Part shown: in pieces, positions 42,072-51,517 of the stretch
How positions within the stretch are numbered: position 1 is the stretch's first letter
Layout: the number at the start of each line of letters is the position of its first letter
Assembly: GCF_004300825.1 (NCBI RefSeq)
Contig: NZ_CP036250.1
Location: 1,860,001-1,924,000 of the forward strand
Source: Egicoccus halophilus
GTDB lineage: Bacteria; Actinomycetota; Nitriliruptoria; Nitriliruptorales; Nitriliruptoraceae
Length of the DNA stretch: 64,000 bases
Direction: 5' to 3'
Notes under the pieces: generated by a model
Seen by the model: the letters and a program-made list of their open reading frames with translations, nothing else
The model's database searches: none
What the model was told of the DNA's origin: nothing
Translations under genes and position numbers: made by a program

Positions 42072-43519
42072 GCCAGACCGAGATCCAGCTCCCGGTCAGC
42101 GAGGCCCGCGCCGAGCAGGCCCGCGTCGCCGAGGACCTGTCGGACTACAAGTTCGGCTGGTCCGACAGCGACGAGGGCTACGCCTTCACGTCGGGCACCG
42201 GCCTGACGCGCGAGACCGTCGCCGCCATCAGCGAGCGCAAGAACGAGCCCTCGTGGATGCGTGACCTGCGTCTGCGCGCCTTCGACGCCTACGGGCGCCG
42301 TCCGATGCCCAACTGGGGCTCGGACCTGTCCGGGATCAAGTTCGAGGACATCTTCTACTACGTCGAGGCCAGCGAGAAGCAGGCCAACTCGTGGGAGGAG
42401 CTGCCGCCGGAGATCCTCGAGACCTACGAGAAGCTCGGCATCCCGCAGGCCGAGCGCGAGCGGCTCATCGCCGGCGTCGCGGCGCAGTACGAGTCCACCG
42501 TGCTCTACCACAAGGTCCGCGAGGACCTCGAGGAGCAGGGCGTGGTGTTCCTCGACACCGACACCGCGCTGCACGAGCACGAGGACATCTTCCGCGAGCA
42601 CTTCGCGACGGTGATCCCGGCCAACGACAACAAGTTCGCGGCGCTCAACACCGCGGTCTGGTCGGGCGGGTCCTTCATCTGGATCCCCGAGGGCGTCAAG
42701 GTCGACATCCCGCTGCAGGCCTACTTCCGCATCAACAAGCAGAACATGGGCCAGTTCGAGCGCACGCTGATCATCGCCGAGCCGGGCAGCTACGTGCACT
42801 ACGTCGAGGGCTGCACGGCGCCGATCTACAGCTCCGACTCGCTGCACTCCGCGGTGGTCGAGATCATCGTCAAGGAGGGCGCACGCGTCCGCTACACGAC
42901 GATCCAGAACTGGTCGAACAACGTCTACAACCTGGTGACCAAGCGCGCCGTGGCGGAGAAGAACGCCACCATGGAGTGGATCGACGGCAACATCGGCTCC
43001 AAGGTCACGATGAAGTACCCGGCCGTGTGGCTCACCGGCGAGGGCGCCAAGGGCGAGGTCCTGTCGGTGGCGTACGCCAACGACGGCCAGCACCAGGACG
43101 CCGGCGCCAAGATGGTCCACGCCGCGCCGTACACGACCTCGAACATCCTGTCGAAGTCGATCTCCAAGGGCACCGGTCGTACCTCCTACCGCGGCCTGGT
43201 CCGCATCGAGGAGGGCGCCCACCACGCCCGCAGCGCCGTCAAGTGCGATGCGCTGATGCTCGACGACACCTCGCGTACGGACACCTACCCGTACATGGAG
43301 ATCGAGCAGGAGGACGCCACGATCGAGCACGAGGCCACGGTCTCGAAGGTCTCCGACGACCAGCTGTTCTACATGCAGTCGCGCGGGATCGACGAGGACG
43401 AGGCCACGGCCATGATCGTGCGTGGCTTCATCGAGCCCATCGCCCGTGAGCTGCCGATGGAGTACTCCGTCGAGCTCAACCGCCTGATCGCGCTGGAGAT
43501 GGAAGGCGCCATCGGATGA
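42068..43519 (+). CDS. sufB: Fe-S cluster assembly protein SufB
   Basis: A 483-residue SufB, the main scaffold of the SufBCD complex on which Fe-S clusters are built. Segments include [45 protein letters not shown] in parts, [11 protein letters not shown], and the C-terminal [20 protein letters not shown]. The conserved Cys lies in VEGCTAP, with a second in SAVKCDAL (the position of the catalytic Cys405 of E. coli SufB). GTG 42068 overlaps the sufR stop. No intein is present, unlike in mycobacteria. Confidence 0.96.
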
Positions 43520-44970
43520 CGACGTCCTCCCTCCGTTCCGGACCCGAGAAGACGGTCGCCCCCGTCGATCGCGTTGCGGTTCCGCTCGACGCGTTGACCG
43601 AGGACGCCGTGCGCAGCCTGGCGACCGGTGAGCCCGACTGGCTCGTCGACCGTCGCCTGGCCGCCACCAAACGCTACCTCGACCAGTCCTGGCCCGACAG
43701 CCGCAAGGACGAGTTCTGGCGCTCGACACCCTTCGCCAAGCGCTTCGACGTCAGCCACCCGCTGGTGGCCGAGGCGCCGGCCGCGGTCGGCACCGACACC
43801 GAGGGCGACGACGCCCTTCCGGGCTCGCTCGTCGCCTCGCTGGAGCTGTCGACGGCGCAGGTGCGCATCGTCGACGGTGAGCTCGTCGAGGTGGTCGTGC
43901 CGACCGCGCTCGCCGAACAGGGCGTGGTCGTCACCGACCTGCGCACCGCCGCCGAGGAGCACGCCGACCTCGTCCGCGAGCACCTCGGGTCGCTGACCAC
44001 CAGCGGCGAGGGCTCGGGCGCCGACGAGGACCGCACCATCACCGTCAACGACGCGGCCTGGACGGCGGGTGCGTTCGTGTACGTGCCGGCCGAGGTCGAG
44101 CTCAGCGACCCGATCGGGGTGCACGTCCACGTCACCCGCGACGGCGCCCACCTGCCCCGCGTGCTGGCCGTGCTCGGCCACCACGCCAAGGCGACGATCT
44201 ACCTCGAGCACACCTCCGACGAGGGGGTGTCCGCGCTGGTCGACGAGGTCGTCGAGGTCGTGGCCCAGGACGCCTCCCAGGTCGACCTCGTCAGCCTGCA
44301 CGAGTGGGCCGACGGGATCGGTCACCTGTCGCTGCAGAAGATCGCGGCCCACCGTGACACCCGGGTGCGTCATGCCGCGATCGTCGCCGGCGGCTCGACC
44401 GTCCGGTTGCGCCCGGAGTGCGACCTGCTCGGCCCCGGTGCCGACGTGCGTCCGCTGGGGATGTACTACGCCGACGAGGGGCAGTGGTTCGACCTGCAGC
44501 CCTACGTCCGCCACATCGCTCCGCGCGCGACGTCCGACGTGTTCTACAAGGGCGCGCTGCAGGGCAACAGCCGCACGATCTTCCGCGGCAACATCTTCGT
44601 GCACAAGGACGCCGTCGGCACGGCCACGGACGAGAACAACAAGACCCTGCTGCTGACCGAGGGCGCGCGCGCCGACGCCACGCCGTTCCTCGAGATCGAG
44701 TGCGCCGACATCACGGCCGGGCACGGCTCGGCGACCGGGCAGCTCGACGCCCGGCACCTGTTCTACCTCGAGTCGCGCGGCATCCCGCGCCCGCAGGCGC
44801 TGCGCATGCTGGTCCACGGCTTCTTCGGCGAGATCCTGCGCGCGATCGACCTGCCGGGTGTCGAGGAGCGCGCCCTGTCGCACATCGAGGCCGAGCTCGC
44901 GTCGACCGACCTCGACAACCTGGGCATCAACGACGCCGCGTTGCGTGGTGAGTTGCGGGGCGAGCTCTGA
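43516..44970 (+). CDS. sufD: Fe-S cluster assembly protein SufD
   Basis: A 484-residue SufD, the SufB paralogue in the SufBCD scaffold. The beta-helix core is followed by [24 protein letters not shown] in parts, [17 protein letters not shown] (containing the conserved His, about 405) and the C-terminal [21 protein letters not shown] that mirrors SufB. The ATG overlaps the sufB stop and its own stop overlaps the Rieske gene start, so the three are translationally linked. Confidence 0.95.
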
Positions 44971-45314
44971 TGGCCGCCTCGAAGGTCGCCACCCTCGGTG
45001 AGCTCACCGACGCGGTCCCGCACCGGGTCGAGGTCGACGGCGTGCCCGTCTGCCTCGTCCGGTTCGGGGACGAGGTGAAGGCGATCCACGACACCTGTTC
45101 CCACCAGGAGTGGTCGCTGACCGACGGCGGGACGGTCTACGGCAACGAGGTCGAGTGCAGCCTGCACGGCAGCGCCTTCGACCTCGACGACGGCCGGCCG
45201 TCGTCGCTGCCGGCGACCCGGCCGATCCCGACCTTCGCGGTCGAGATCGACGGTGACGCCGTGCTGCTCGACGTGCACGCCCCGACCAACGACGCTCCGT
45301 TTCCCGACCACTGA
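44970..45314 (+). CDS. Rieske-type [2Fe-2S] ferredoxin in the SUF operon
   Basis: A 114-residue Rieske ferredoxin. The two cluster-binding loops are DTCSHQEWSLTDG and ECSLHGSAFDLDDG, giving the Cys-x-His ... Cys-x2-His ligands. This position between sufD and sufC is usual in actinobacteria; the protein may supply electrons for cluster assembly, but its role is not established. The ATG overlaps the sufD stop (TGATG). Confidence 0.92.
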   Translation: MAASKVATLGELTDAVPHRVEVDGVPVCLVRFGDEVKAIHDTCSHQEWSLTDGGTVYGNEVECSLHGSAFDLDDGRPSSLPATRPIPTFAVEIDGDAVLLDVHAPTNDAPFPDH

Positions 45315-45398
45315 CGCCGCAGCACGTGCGGCGGACCACCGACGACGACGGCCCGAGCGGGGCCACGTCTGAGTCGACGACCGAAAGCTTGCAGAACC

Positions 45399-46139
45399 AT
45401 GGCTGATCTCGAGATCCGCGACCTGACGGTCGAGGTGGACGGTTCCGACATCCTGCGTGGTGTCAACCTCGACCTCGACAAGGGCAAGACCCTCGCCCTG
45501 ATGGGCCCCAACGGCTCGGGCAAGTCGACGTTGGCCTACGCCATCGCCGGCCACCCGGCCTACGACATCACCGGCGGCACCATCCGCTGGCAGGGCACCG
45601 ACCTGGTCGAGCTGGCCCCCGACGACCGCGCCCGCCTCGGCGTCTTCCTCGCCATGCAGTACCCGGTCGAGGTGCCCGGCGTCTCGCTGACGAACTTCCT
45701 GCGGACGGCGCTCAACGCCACCAACGAGCAGGACGTGCCGATCCGCGAGTTCATGTCACGTCTGCGCGCGGAGATGGCCGAGCTGTCGATCGAGGAGTCG
45801 TTCCTGCAGCGCTCGGTCAACGAGGGCTTCTCCGGCGGGGAGAAGAAGCGCTTCGAGATCCTGCAGATGGCGATGCTCAAGCCGCAGCTGGCCGTCCTCG
45901 ACGAGACCGACTCCGGCCTCGACGTCGACGCGCTCAAGGTCGTCTCCGAGGGTGTCAACCGGCTCACCGGCCCCGACCTCGGGACCTTGATCATCACCCA
46001 CTACACCCGCATCCTGCGCTACATCCGCCCCGACGAGGTCCACGTGATGTTCGAGGGCCGCATCGTCGCCAGTGGAGGCGCGGAGCTCGCCGACGAGCTC
46101 GAGGAGCGCGGCTACGACCACCTCAAGACCAACGCCTGA
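45399..46139 (+). CDS. sufC: Fe-S cluster assembly ATPase SufC
   Basis: A 246-residue ABC-like ATPase of the SufBCD complex, soluble and not a transporter. It has Walker A GPNGSGKSTL (about 34), the SufC-type sequence GVFLAMQYPVEVPGVSLTNFLR, signature EGFSGGEKKR, Walker B LAVLDETDSGLD (with Asp-Glu-Thr as in SufC) and H loop IITHYTRIL. ATP use by SufC drives the SufBD rearrangement that exposes cluster sites. ATG 45399 lies 84 nt after the Rieske gene with only a weak ribosome-binding site. Confidence 0.96.
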   Translation: MADLEIRDLTVEVDGSDILRGVNLDLDKGKTLALMGPNGSGKSTLAYAIAGHPAYDITGGTIRWQGTDLVELAPDDRARLGVFLAMQYPVEVPGVSLTNFLRTALNATNEQDVPIREFMSRLRAEMAELSIEESFLQRSVNEGFSGGEKKRFEILQMAMLKPQLAVLDETDSGLDVDALKVVSEGVNRLTGPDLGTLIITHYTRILRYIRPDEVHVMFEGRIVASGGAELADELEERGYDHLKTNA

Positions 46140-46245
46140 CCGGTCTCCGCCACCCGTGCCACCGTTGTCCCGGTCGGCACGGGTGTCCGGGCCAGGACCA
46201 CGGCACCCTGGACGCTCCCACGCCAGTCACGAAGCGAGGACGGCC

Positions 46246-47484
46246 ATGACCCTCGACGTCTCGACCCTCCGCAAGGACTTCCCGGTCCTCTCCCGGGAGG
46301 TGCACGACGGACGGCGGCTGGTCTACCTCGACTCCGCGGCGTCCTCACAGACCCCGACGCCGGTGCTCGAGGCGATGGATCGCTACTACCGCTGGTCGCG
46401 CTCCAACGTCCACCGTGGGGTCTACCGCCTCGCCGAGGAGGCCACCGACCTCTACGAGGGCGGCCGCACCAAGCTGGCGAGCTTCGTCGACGCCGACCCC
46501 CGTGGCGTGGTGTTCACCAAGAACGCGACGGAGGCCATGAACCTCGTGGCCTACGCGTGGGTGCGCCGGCACGTCGGCCCCGACGACGTGGTGCTCACCA
46601 CCATGATGGAGCACCACGCCAACCACGTCCCGCTGCTGTACGCGGCGCGTGACGTCGGTTTCGAGGTCCGGCACGTGCCGCTGACCGACGACGGCCAGCT
46701 CGACCACGACGCGGCCCGTGAGCTCGTCGCCGACGGTCGGGTGACGTTCCTCGCGATGGTGCACGTGTCCAACGTGCTCGGGACCCGCAACGACGTCGCC
46801 GCGATGACCGCGCTGGTGCGCGACGCCAACGCCGAGTGCGTCGTGCTCGTCGACGGCACGCAGGCCGTCCCGCAGATGCCGGTCAGCTTCCGTGAGCTCG
46901 ACGTCGACTTCTACGCGCTCACCGGACACAAGATGTGCGGCCCGACCGGCATCGGTGCGCTGATCGCCAAGCCCGAACGGCTCGAGCAGATGGACCCGTT
47001 CTTGACCGGCGGCGAGATGATCCGCGACGTCTCGATCGAGGCGGTCACCTGGAACGAGATCCCGGCCAAGTTCGAGGCCGGCACCCCCATGATCGCCGAG
47101 GCGGCCGGGCTCGGCGCCGCCGTCGACTACCTCACCGGCGTCGGCATGGAAGCCATCCGCGACCACGAGACGCAGCTGGCCCAGGTCTTCCTCGACCGGC
47201 TGGGTGAGCTCGACGGGGTGAGCGTGCACGGTCCGGCCGACGCGACGCTGCGCGGCGGGGCGATCTCGTTCGCGATCGAGGGTGTCCACCCGCACGACGT
47301 CGGCGCGATGCTCGACTCCAAGGGCGTGTGCGTCCGGGTCGGGCACCACTGCGCCAAGCCACTGATGAAGGAACTGGGGGTGGTGGCGACGGCGCGTGCG
47401 AGCCTGTACCTCTACAACGACGTCGACGACCTCGACCCGCTCGTCGAGGGCATCGAGGCCGCCCGCTCGTTCTTCGCCCGCTGA
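46246..47484 (+). CDS. sufS: Cysteine desulfurase SufS
   Basis: A 412-residue group II cysteine desulfurase that draws sulfur from cysteine for Fe-S assembly. The PLP lysine is in ALTGHKMCGPTGIG (about 229), and the persulfide Cys in RVGHHCAKPLM (about 368). LDSAASSQTP at the start and TTMMEHHANHVP are typical of SufS. ATG 46246 has GCGAGGA 7 nt upstream. SufU, the zinc-dependent sulfur acceptor, is encoded next; there is no SufE. Confidence 0.95.
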   Translation: MTLDVSTLRKDFPVLSREVHDGRRLVYLDSAASSQTPTPVLEAMDRYYRWSRSNVHRGVYRLAEEATDLYEGGRTKLASFVDADPRGVVFTKNATEAMNLVAYAWVRRHVGPDDVVLTTMMEHHANHVPLLYAARDVGFEVRHVPLTDDGQLDHDAARELVADGRVTFLAMVHVSNVLGTRNDVAAMTALVRDANAECVVLVDGTQAVPQMPVSFRELDVDFYALTGHKMCGPTGIGALIAKPERLEQMDPFLTGGEMIRDVSIEAVTWNEIPAKFEAGTPMIAEAAGLGAAVDYLTGVGMEAIRDHETQLAQVFLDRLGELDGVSVHGPADATLRGGAISFAIEGVHPHDVGAMLDSKGVCVRVGHHCAKPLMKELGVVATARASLYLYNDVDDLDPLVEGIEAARSFFAR

Positions 47485-47512
47485 CTCTTCCGCCCCGCCA
47501 GGAGGCGCGCCC

Positions 47513-47977
47513 GTGAGCATGGACGACCTGTACCAGGAGATCATCCTGGACCACTACCGCAGCCCGAAGAACCGGGCACCCTCCCTCGAGGACGAGGACG
47601 TGCACGTCCACCACTCCAACCCGCTGTGCGGTGACGAGATGGACCTGCGCCTGCGGGTGGCCGACGACCATGTCGACGGCCTGGTGTTCGACGGCGAGGG
47701 CTGCTCGATCAGTCAGGCGTCGGCGTCGGCGATGACCCAGGCGGTGCTCGGGCGCGACCTCAAGGACGCGCTCGACCTCACCGAGGACTTCCGACGCATG
47801 ATGCACGGCGACGAGCCCGCCCGCGCCGACGACCTGCTCGACGGCATCGCCTTCCAGGGCGTGGCCAAGTTCCCCGTCCGGGTCAAGTGCGCCCTGCTGG
47901 GGTGGATGGCCGTCCGCGACGCGATCGAGACCTACCAGAACGGTGCTTCCGCCCACACCGTGACGCACGACGAGTGA
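47513..47977 (+). CDS. sufU: Sulfur-transfer scaffold SufU
   Basis: A 154-residue SufU/IscU-like protein that accepts sulfur from SufS. The three cysteines are in HSNPLCGDEM (about 40), GEGCSISQAS (about 65) and VKCALLGWM (about 127), with the Asp of CGD, as expected for zinc-binding SufU. GTG 47513 has AGGAGG 7 nt upstream. The sufT gene follows immediately. Confidence 0.95.
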   Translation: MSMDDLYQEIILDHYRSPKNRAPSLEDEDVHVHHSNPLCGDEMDLRLRVADDHVDGLVFDGEGCSISQASASAMTQAVLGRDLKDALDLTEDFRRMMHGDEPARADDLLDGIAFQGVAKFPVRVKCALLGWMAVRDAIETYQNGASAHTVTHDE

Positions 47978-47985
47978 GTGACTCC

Positions 47986-48450
47986 ATGAGCCAGTACGAC
48001 GTCGACACCGCGCTGCACGACGACGAGATCCCCGAGGCGGACACGCCCACCGGGAAGGTCGAGGACGCCGACACCGCCGCGGAGGCGCCGCGCACGCGCC
48101 ACCCGTTCGAGGACCTGCCGCTCGAAGCGGACGGTATGCCGGCCTCGCAGGACCTGTTCAACGGCCTGCGCGCCGTGGTCGACCCGGAGATCGGCTACAA
48201 CATCGTCGACCTCGGTCTCGTCTACGACGTCACCAAGCCCGAGCCCGGCTACGTCCACGTCCTGATGACGCTGACCACGATGGGTTGCCCCCTGACCGAG
48301 GTCATCCACCAGCAGTGCTCGGTCATCCTCGGTGCGATGCCCGGCGTTGAGCGGGTCGAGGTGGAGTTCACCTTCACGCCGCCCTGGGGGCCGCACGCGA
48401 TGGCCGACTACGTGCGCGAGGAACTGCGCGCCATGGGCATGAACATCTGA
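47986..48450 (+). CDS. sufT: MIP18-family protein, SufT-like (DUF59)
   Basis: A 154-residue protein with a disordered acidic N-terminus (about 1-45) and a DUF59/MIP18 domain: GLRAVVDPEIGYNIVDLGLVYDV in parts, MTLTTMGCPLTEVIHQQ (with the conserved Cys) and EFTFTPPWGPHAMAD. SufT-like proteins help mature Fe-S proteins. ATG 47986 is used; GTG 47974, in frame and overlapping the sufU stop, is also possible. It ends the SUF operon. Confidence 0.9.
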   Translation: MSQYDVDTALHDDEIPEADTPTGKVEDADTAAEAPRTRHPFEDLPLEADGMPASQDLFNGLRAVVDPEIGYNIVDLGLVYDVTKPEPGYVHVLMTLTTMGCPLTEVIHQQCSVILGAMPGVERVEVEFTFTPPWGPHAMADYVREELRAMGMNI

Positions 48451-48491
48451 TCCGCCCCGTCGACCCGCCGAACGTCGGCCTGCCGACCGCC

Positions 48492-48827
48492 GTGACCGAC
48501 CCGGACACGGACGGCCGGGCGGCCCAGCCCGGTTACGTCGCCTGCAGCGAGCTGCGGGTCGCCGCCGAGGGACGCGCGGCGCTGCTCGCGGCCTTCCGGG
48601 ACCGGCTCGGTGCGGTGGACTCGTGGCCCGGGTTCCGGGGCGTGCAGGTGTGGCAGGACGACTCTGACCCGTTGCGGTTCGTGATGGTCACCTGGTGGGA
48701 CGACGAGGCGGCCTTCCGTGACTACCTCGCCAGCGACGCCTTCCGCCGCTCGGCGGCCCGCATCCCGGCCGGTGAACACGGGCCGCGTCGGGTCGCCCTC
48801 GACCGGTTCGAGGTGGTGGCGTGGTGA
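48492..48827 (+). CDS. Antibiotic biosynthesis monooxygenase (ABM) domain protein
   Basis: A 111-residue dimeric-ferredoxin-fold protein of the ABM family. LLAAFRDRLGAVDSWPGFRGVQVWQ and RFVMVTWWDDEAAFRDYLAS match the fold, as in haem-degrading or quinone-forming monooxygenases and many unknowns. No haem-ligand motif is clear. GTG 48492 is the start. Its stop overlaps the start of the cobalamin-binding protein gene (GTGA), so the two are made together and may act together. Confidence 0.78.
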   Translation: MTDPDTDGRAAQPGYVACSELRVAAEGRAALLAAFRDRLGAVDSWPGFRGVQVWQDDSDPLRFVMVTWWDDEAAFRDYLASDAFRRSAARIPAGEHGPRRVALDRFEVVAW

Positions 48828-49840
48828 ACGAGGTCACGACCGCCGCGCACGAGCGGCTGCTCGCCGTCGCCGAGACGGGCGACGTCGACGGGGCGTTCGC
48901 GCTGCTGCACGGCTGGCTCGACGCCGGTTGGACACCGTCACGGATCCTCTCCGAGGCGGTGGTGCCCGCGCAGCAGGAGGTCGGCGCCCGCTGGCAGCGC
49001 AACGAGTGGACCATCGCCAAGGAGCACACGGCCACCGCCGTCGTCGACGCGCTGGTGGGGGTCCTCGGGCTGCGGGCCGCCGAACAGCCCTGGACGCGCC
49101 CCAACCGGGACCCCGTCCTGGTCGTCTGCGCCGAGGGGGAGTGGCACACGCTCTCGGCACGGCTGGTCACCGAGGGCCTGCGCGCCGAGGGCTGGCCGGT
49201 CCGCCTCCTGGGCGGCTCGGTGCCGGCCAGCCACCTCGCGCACAGCGCCGCCGAGGGGACCTGGACGGCGGCCGTGGTGTGCTGCGCGGTGCCGATGTTC
49301 CTGCCCGGTGCGCGTCGCACGACCGCCGTGCTGCGGGCGGCCGGAATCCCGGTGCTGGTGACCGGACGGGGGTTCGGCGGCGACGATCGGCGTGCCGAGG
49401 CGGTCGGCGCCGACGGCTGGGCGCCGGACCTCGCGACGGGTCTCGAGGTGCTCGGCGACTGGGAGCGTGTCCCGCCGCCGTTGGCCGGCGCCCCGGTCCC
49501 TCCCGACGAGGTCGAGGAGTTGGCGTCGGTCGCGGGCAGCGTGGCCGAAGCGGCCTATGCCGAGCTCGCAGTGGCCTGGCCAGCGCTCGGTCGTCTGCCG
49601 TCGGCGGCCCGGCAACGCACCCGGGAGGACTTCGGCTACCTGCTGCAGTTCCTCGAGGCGACGGTCCTGACGGGGGACGAGCGGATCCTGCGGGACTACG
49701 TCGACTGGTTGGCGACGGTGCTCGGCAGCCGCGGCGTCCCCGACGACGTCGTCTCGATCACCCTCGCCAGTGTGCAGCGGGCGCTGCCGACCGGGCTGCG
49801 CCACGCCCACGACGCCCTGTTGAGCGTCCGCGACCGCTGA
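48824..49840 (+). CDS. Cobalamin-binding protein with photoreceptor-type Wx9EH motif
   Basis: A 338-residue protein. Residues 1-95 are a helical B12-cap domain with Trp57-x9-Glu67-His68 (WQRNEWTIAKEH), the signature of the light-sensing CarH/LitR cobalamin domain. A Rossmann B12-binding domain follows (about 97-215), with EGEWHTLS (Glu106-x-His108-x2-Ser) in place of the usual (D/E)xHxxG. The helical C-terminus (about 235-338: FGYLLQFLEATVLTGDERILRDYVDWL in parts) recalls RsbR-type sensor folds. There is no MerR DNA-binding domain, so it would have to act through a partner. GTG 48824 overlaps the ABM gene stop. Confidence 0.82.
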   Translation: MNEVTTAAHERLLAVAETGDVDGAFALLHGWLDAGWTPSRILSEAVVPAQQEVGARWQRNEWTIAKEHTATAVVDALVGVLGLRAAEQPWTRPNRDPVLVVCAEGEWHTLSARLVTEGLRAEGWPVRLLGGSVPASHLAHSAAEGTWTAAVVCCAVPMFLPGARRTTAVLRAAGIPVLVTGRGFGGDDRRAEAVGADGWAPDLATGLEVLGDWERVPPPLAGAPVPPDEVEELASVAGSVAEAAYAELAVAWPALGRLPSAARQRTREDFGYLLQFLEATVLTGDERILRDYVDWLATVLGSRGVPDDVVSITLASVQRALPTGLRHAHDALLSVRDR

Positions 49841-49918: not shown

Positions 49919-51517
49919 TCATGCGCCCGGTGCGCGTGCGGCCCGCAGCAGGTCGGTGACGCGGCGCGCGTCCTCCACCACGCCGGGCAGGGCGAACTCG
50001 AGGCGCAGACGTGCCGCCGGGTCGTCGGCGACCGGCAGTCGGGGCGGTCCGTCCCCGAACGACAGGTCCACCGGCAGCGCGCCGGACGGTGCCTTGGTCG
50101 CGGGCACGACCGCGCCGCCGAGCGCCACGACGAGGTCCTCGAGCACGCCGGCCACCTCGCGTGGCCGTGACAGGTGCAGCAGGCGCCGCGTCGCCCGGTG
50201 GACGAGCTGGCTGGTGACCGGGTCGACGTCGCGTTCGACCACGGTGGGCGCGAACGTCCGGAGCTCGGTGCGCAGCCCACCGGCGGCGTCGGCGTCCGGG
50301 GCGGGGGACGACCCGCCGGACCAGCCGCGCACGACGGTGGTGTCACGACGCGGGAACGCCTGCGGTAGCCGTGCCCGGAAACAGGTGCCCACGCCCGGTT
50401 CGCTGACCACCTCGACGTCCCCGCCGTGCAGCTGGACGTACTGCTGCACGATGGACAGGCCCAGCCCGGTGCCCCCACGGTGTCCGCGTTCGAAGCGGTC
50501 GAAGAGGCGGGGCAGGAGCTCGGCGGGGATCCCCGGGCCGTCGTCGACGACCTCGAGGGACACCGAGTCGGCATGGAGGGCAGCCCGCACCGTCACGGTC
50601 GTGCCCGGTGGGGTGTGCCGGGCGGCGTTGCCGAGCAGGTTGCGCAGGATCCGCCCCAGTCCCTGCGGGTCGGCGTGGAGTTCGACGTCGTCGACCTCCA
50701 GCCGCACCGGGTGCTCGGCCGTCAGCGGGGAGAGATCCGCCACCAGTCGCGTCACGAAGTCCCGCAGCGGCACCGGTTCGGGGCGGAGCTCGAGTTGTCC
50801 CGTTGCCAGCCGGGAGGAGGTCCGCAGGTTGTCGATCAGGTCCTGCAGCGCCCGCGTGTTCGACAACACCCGCTCGAGGACCTCCTCCTGCTCGTCGTCC
50901 GGGATGTGCCCGTCGCGCAGCAGCGTGACGAATCCGTTGACGGCGACGACCGGCGTCTGCAGGTCGTGCACGACCGAGGCCAGGAACTCCTGCCGTTGGC
51001 GTTCCACCTCCTCCCGACCGTGCGCGGCCTGCTCCCGTTCAGCCAGCTCGCGCTCACGGGAGCTGGCTTCGGCGAGACGCGCCGTCCGGTCGCGGATGAC
51101 CTCGGCGAAGCCGCTCAGCTCGCCGTGCGGTCCTCGCAGGGTGGTGACCACGACCTCGGCCCAGAACCGGCGGCCGTCGCGACGCACCCGCCAACCCTGG
51201 TCGTCGGCGTGCCCGTCGCGGCGCGCCCGGGCCAACAGCGTGTCCGGGCCGGTCGGTGGGGGAGCGCCGGTGGCGTGGAGGACGGCGTGGGGACGCCCGA
51301 CGATCTCGTCCTCGGCGTAGCCGGTGACGCGACCGGCCCCGGCGTTCCAGGTCGTGACGACCCCGTCGGCGTCCAGCAGGAAGATCGCGTGGTCGGGCAC
51401 GTTGTCGAGCAGGAGGCGGGATCGCTGCTCGCGCTGGCGCAACTCGTCGCCGCCCAGCTCGTCGCCACGCCGCGACGTGGCGCGGCGCGACCGCCGCTCC
51501 GCGCGACGCTGGGACAT
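49919..51517 (-). CDS. PAS-domain sensor histidine kinase with C-terminal extension
   Basis: A 532-residue cytoplasmic kinase. A PAS domain (about 35-150: LLDNVPDHAIFLLDADG, WNAGAGRVTGYAEDEIVGR) is joined by a coiled coil to HisKA (VVHDLQTPVVAVNGF, phospho-His about 179) and HATPase (NLLGNAARHTPPG, DDGPGIP, GTGLGLSI). The PAS lacks the NCRFLQ motif of blue-light LOV domains. About 150 extra C-terminal residues (from about 385) form an unknown domain (VERDVDPVTSQLVHRATRRLL). ATG 51517 has GGGAG 7 nt upstream. It is convergent with the B12-sensor gene. Confidence 0.85.
   Translation of the reverse strand: MSQRRAERRSRRATSRRGDELGGDELRQREQRSRLLLDNVPDHAIFLLDADGVVTTWNAGAGRVTGYAEDEIVGRPHAVLHATGAPPPTGPDTLLARARRDGHADDQGWRVRRDGRRFWAEVVVTTLRGPHGELSGFAEVIRDRTARLAEASSRERELAEREQAAHGREEVERQRQEFLASVVHDLQTPVVAVNGFVTLLRDGHIPDDEQEEVLERVLSNTRALQDLIDNLRTSSRLATGQLELRPEPVPLRDFVTRLVADLSPLTAEHPVRLEVDDVELHADPQGLGRILRNLLGNAARHTPPGTTVTVRAALHADSVSLEVVDDGPGIPAELLPRLFDRFERGHRGGTGLGLSIVQQYVQLHGGDVEVVSEPGVGTCFRARLPQAFPRRDTTVVRGWSGGSSPAPDADAAGGLRTELRTFAPTVVERDVDPVTSQLVHRATRRLLHLSRPREVAGVLEDLVVALGGAVVPATKAPSGALPVDLSFGDGPPRLPVADDPAARLRLEFALPGVVEDARRVTDLLRAARAPGA

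Follow-up and report, generated by a model that had tools for sequence, protein, structure and literature searches.

The window analysed here, a stretch of 64,000 nucleotides from Egicoccus halophilus, contains an open reading frame whose product, judged by alignment and domain content, is almost certainly a member of the photocobilins, a family, described in 2024 (PMC10979010), in which a B12 receptor also bears a globin-like domain for biliverdin. The gene follows that of an ABM-domain protein on the same strand and is convergent with the gene of a PAS histidine kinase, whose C-terminus carries an unnamed domain, called PPD here.

48492..48827, plus strand: ABM-domain protein, 111 aa (PF03992, E 9e-17; best PDB match HmoB 4oz5, E 9e-11)
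48824..49840, plus strand: standalone photocobilin of 338 aa, or 339 aa from an alternative GTG at 48821; full-length match to 8J2W/8J2X/8J2Y
48851..49066, plus strand: B12-binding helical cap, residues 11-82 (PF02607 B12-binding_2, E 4e-12)
48992-48994 and 49022-49027, plus strand: cap motif codons, Trp58 and Glu68-His69, invariant in 25 sequences
49115..49432, plus strand: B12-binding Rossmann domain with EGEWH, residues 99-204 (PF02310 B12-binding, E 7e-8)
49145-49147, plus strand: codon of the Rossmann His109, invariant in 25 sequences
49502..49825, plus strand: globin-like biliverdin domain, aligned to SasPcob, with the codons of Asp270 (49628-49630) and Trp296 (49706-49708)
49919..51517, minus strand: PAS histidine kinase of 532 aa when codon usage sets the start (the frame stays open to 51802); gene convergent with that of the photocobilin
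51089-51415, 50801-50998 and 50360-50671, minus strand: PAS, HisKA and HATPase_c domains of the kinase (Pfam)
49931..50206, minus strand: PPD, about 95 aa, kinase C-terminus; recurs beside photocobilins in relatives

The ABM and photocobilin genes overlap by 4 nt at GTGA and are translationally coupled, as the preliminary description of this DNA had held, and the convergent kinase that it named is real, with a PAS-HisKA-HATPase architecture by Pfam. Scans for promoter and terminator consensus sequences gave no match. Residues are numbered here from 48821; Trp57, Glu67 and His68 of the preliminary description were counted from the GTG at 48824. The region 43001-49837 holds a run of suf-type Fe-S cluster genes, on one strand and with short gaps, leading into the ABM-photocobilin pair, and genes of similar size lie upstream of the pair in the nearest relative (G001, locus L035).

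Identity of the B12 receptor

In a phmmer search of the PDB, the best match was SasPcob from Saccharothrix syringae (8J2W/8J2X, E 6e-51, residues 5-330 aligned), followed by AbPcob (8J2Y, E 5e-45) and then CarH (2e-11). SasPcob (PMC10979010) is about 35% identical to the window protein and has the same cap, Rossmann and globin-like domains and the same B12 residues (Trp/Glu/His/His). Biliverdin is contacted in SasPcob by Asp270 and Trp296 (PMC10979010), and both are kept in the alignment. A single-protein query of the genome contigs recovered only one true photocobilin relative. The AlphaFold2 model (pLDDT 65.5) is of medium quality because only two sequences, the window protein and that of locus L033, were aligned for it; Foldseek and VIA-align both ranked photocobilin structures first.

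The preliminary description had recognised a B12 photoreceptor module of the CarH/LitR type from a Wx9EH cap motif and the string EGEWHTLS, which contains His109. Both are present, Pfam finds both B12-binding domains, and the shared Wx9EH and ExH motifs, together with the cap and Rossmann domain that bind adenosylcobalamin (AdoCbl) in CarH/LitR, bear the assignment out. None of the 25 aligned homologues departs from Trp58, Glu68, His69 and His109, so the B12 motif is not a chance occurrence. CarH/LitR proper were rejected, since their chain also includes a MerR-type DNA-binding domain, and the Pfam scan found neither this nor any other DNA-binding domain in the window protein, as had been noted before.

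The C-terminus had been described as a helical, RsbR-like domain. It is helical, but the full-length alignment to SasPcob identifies it as the photocobilin globin-like, biliverdin-binding domain. An RsbR stressosome protein was also rejected, since Pfam found no STAS domain and a B12 domain precedes the globin-like one, whereas in RsbR the STAS domain follows a non-heme globin. The resemblance was not baseless, because the RsbR globin served as outgroup to the photoglobins in a 2023 study (PMC10151467). With a globin domain of the biliverdin-binding kind, the window protein is probably a two-chromophore receptor, using B12 and a bile pigment. It is not a new type of receptor; it is a known but rare kind of B12 light sensor.

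Other arrangements were seen elsewhere in the sample. At L050:1033-2775 a photocobilin shares one open reading frame with a long C-terminal extension that resembles a putative GAF-ANTAR, and at L149:3878-6114 a gap of 12 bp separates a photocobilin-like gene from a histidine kinase gene immediately downstream.

The PPD domain and its changing outputs

PPD had no match in Pfam, NCBIfam or the PDB, and AlphaFold2 on the domain alone gave a pLDDT of 61.6. A shortened GAF domain was considered, but PPD matched none of three GAF segments when profiles were compared, which is weak evidence given the small alignments. The neighbouring genes that were scanned included no recognisable response regulator.

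All searches together yielded 17 PPD copies that adjoin a photocobilin, spread over three families of the phylum, six at other places (G019 has three, while G233, G310 and G377 have a single copy each) and four at contig ends (G032, G016, G008 and G021:C338). The PPD profile was built from 14 of the 17 adjacent copies; among the nine resolvable copies outside it, three adjoin a photocobilin (two in G319, one in G421), against about 0.1% expected per copy. Thirteen of the 15 genomes with PPD also have a photocobilin, compared with 19 of the 61 relatives overall (hypergeometric 3e-7, the genomes not being independent). G233 and G310 gave no photocobilin match at E 1e-6. In G016, the GGDEF gene that carries PPD is truncated at a contig end and the photocobilin contig starts inside a GGDEF-ABM-like gene, so the two may be one locus. 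Many photocobilin loci are without PPD, and those that are streptomycete-like are instead accompanied by SpoIIE phosphatase and STAS genes; the SasPcob-like loci of the sample likewise have SpoIIE/STAS partners, in contrast to the ABM and PPD-kinase neighbours in the window.

The literal gene order of ABM, B12 protein and PAS kinase, whose conservation had been put forward as a check, was found only in this genome; what is conserved in it is the ABM gene and the C-terminal PPD of the kinase. Beside photocobilins, PPD was seen attached to a kinase in this genome only, a second PPD kinase (L122) lying at a contig end. In relatives PPD stands before GGDEF (a domain that Pfam missed in L041 and L054), between PAS and GGDEF (L112), after EAL (L113) or, in L036, after a MerR domain whose closest solved relatives are CarA and CarH. 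In both the window and L036 the PPD gene has the same position next to the photocobilin gene and runs convergently to it, the output being a kinase in one and MerR in the other, and among 15 pairs compared their photocobilins (49%) and their PPDs (52%) are mutually nearest. Such nearest pairs with different outputs suggest that the photocobilin is tied to PPD and not to the output. Photocobilin and PPD distances over the 15 pairs are correlated (Mantel r 0.85), a correlation that linkage alone could also give. In the photocobilin tree, AbPcob falls in a starred clade with standalone members beside PPD-GGDEF genes.

PPD probably lets one sensor drive different outputs. A bolder proposal, to which we give an even chance, is that PPD is a dedicated adaptor for standalone photocobilins with interchangeable outputs (kinase, MerR, GGDEF, EAL), forming a split, rewirable system of the CarH type with ABM as a third component; gene context in several lineages supports the adaptor idea. 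The presence of PPD beside standalone photocobilins is the new part, and ABM or GGDEF neighbours may have been mentioned in earlier literature.

The kinase is probably linked to the photocobilin. It might instead be an unrelated neighbour, the photocobilin working with ABM or with partners elsewhere and PPD being a general input or regulatory domain that is common near photocobilins by chance. Such a chance association would agree with the six PPD copies away from any photocobilin and with G001, the nearest relative (L035, 63% identity), which has the ABM and photocobilin genes but neither the kinase nor a PPD gene beside the photocobilin. It accords poorly with 17 adjacent copies with varied outputs in three families, at a rate far above that expected, and with the host genome, where photocobilin and PPD occur just once each, the latter in the neighbouring convergent kinase gene; we consider it unlikely, although it is the strongest of the alternatives.

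The ABM neighbour and possible sources of bilin

As had been suggested, the ABM partner is conserved and recurs at photocobilin loci of relatives. Among the 61 relatives, eight ABM copies reached at least 141 bits; seven of them belong to photocobilin loci, and the eighth, at a contig end, is fused to PPD-GGDEF. The next matches fall to 64 bits, except for a copy in G008 that is cut by a contig end and adjoins a PPD gene. Fusions of ABM to PPD-GGDEF occur in three genomes (L048, L117, L161). A wider set of 396 genomes of the phylum added one further strong copy, in the distant G171 (L146:3799-6399). This ABM, of the same subfamily, is separated by 47 bp from a Wx9EH B12 sensor without a globin domain, whose gene in turn overlaps one for a PAS-GAF-SpoIIE protein. 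A second standalone B12 sensor of G171 adjoins a gene for a luciferase-like monooxygenase (L147:2413-4097).

The near-exclusive occurrence of close ABM genes at photocobilin loci, together with an IsdG/HmoB-like fold whose relatives are mostly heme-degrading enzymes, could mean that ABM is a heme monooxygenase supplying bilin to the adjoining photocobilin, so that the locus makes and uses its own pigment. Also in keeping with local synthesis, 18 of the 19 photocobilin genomes among the relatives showed no canonical heme oxygenase. The host genome likewise gave no match to PF01126. The catalytic triad of IsdG-type heme monooxygenases is Asn/Trp/His (PMC6018153). Unlike the IsdG, MhuD and HmoB enzymes of its fold family, the window ABM does not keep the triad, having Ser19/Tyr78/Ala at these positions, and Asn and Trp are replaced in 7/7 aligned copies; it is therefore probably not the bilin maker. 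The sensor beside the G171 copy, moreover, has no globin domain, and the host genome has elsewhere a second, MhuD-like ABM with Asn/Trp/His kept (L145:1980-2390; G000:C1 about 1109979-1110389). Bilin supply by the linked ABM is accordingly improbable, and this protein is better taken as a conserved accessory component. The MhuD-like ABM is a possible source of bilin, although MhuD itself yields mycobilin and not biliverdin (PMC6018153).

Probable signalling by protein contact

Most likely the window photocobilin signals by protein contact. From what can be read in the sequences (photocobilin membership, chromophore residues, the linkage with PPD and ABM and the swapping of outputs), we infer that the protein would be loaded with its chromophores, respond to light, contact PPD and affect the kinase. 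AdoCbl would be held between the helical cap (Trp58, Glu68-His69) and the Rossmann domain, with His109 as the lower Co ligand, and a bilin would occupy the C-terminal globin-like domain. Green light acting on B12, or red light acting on the bilin, would break the Co-C bond, and this cleavage would alter the cap and the oligomer as well as the surface that the protein exposes. The altered photocobilin would then act in trans on a PPD-carrying partner, here the convergent kinase, in which PPD, placed after the ATPase domain, could change kinase activity. This scheme of a standalone photocobilin with AdoCbl photolysis, contact with PPD and exchangeable outputs is the one that we moderately favour. 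The protein might instead carry B12 or corrinoids without responding to light, or sense B12 levels, since the B12 fold is common to corrinoid proteins and a light response is not readable from sequence. This is very improbable, because Trp-x9-Glu-His and the bilin residues match characterised photocobilins and no methyltransferase gene was seen adjoining the photocobilin.

Known systems offer parallels for separate parts of the scheme. Photocobilins act on diguanylate cyclase in trans (PMC10979010). AbDPcob, of which 8J2Y is the photocobilin part, has the same photocobilin fold and differs in being fused to a diguanylate cyclase output and in having the bilin Asp replaced by His; its biliverdin binding is weak (PMC10979010). 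Its close relatives adjoin PPD-GGDEF proteins, a split form of the same wiring. In CarH/LitR the MerR domain lies on the sensor chain, whereas L036 places a CarA/CarH-like MerR domain on another protein, which carries PPD and is encoded beside the photocobilin. As AerR of Rhodobacter capsulatus (7TE2) shows, a standalone B12 receptor can work through contact with a partner (PMC5362033). AerR thereby resembles the window protein in its proposed mode of action, although it has no globin domain, its partner is the repressor CrtJ and its sequence similarity is far lower (E 2e-4).

The role of standalone photocobilins was considered less clear in the 2024 paper, where protein contacts were suggested (PMC10979010). 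PPD provides a concrete candidate contact domain for these receptors, together with natural swaps of output, and its presence on GGDEF, EAL or CarA/CarH-like MerR proteins in relatives suggests that such sensors feed into c-di-GMP turnover or transcription there. The PPD system may also serve as a modular green- and red-light switch in engineered signalling.
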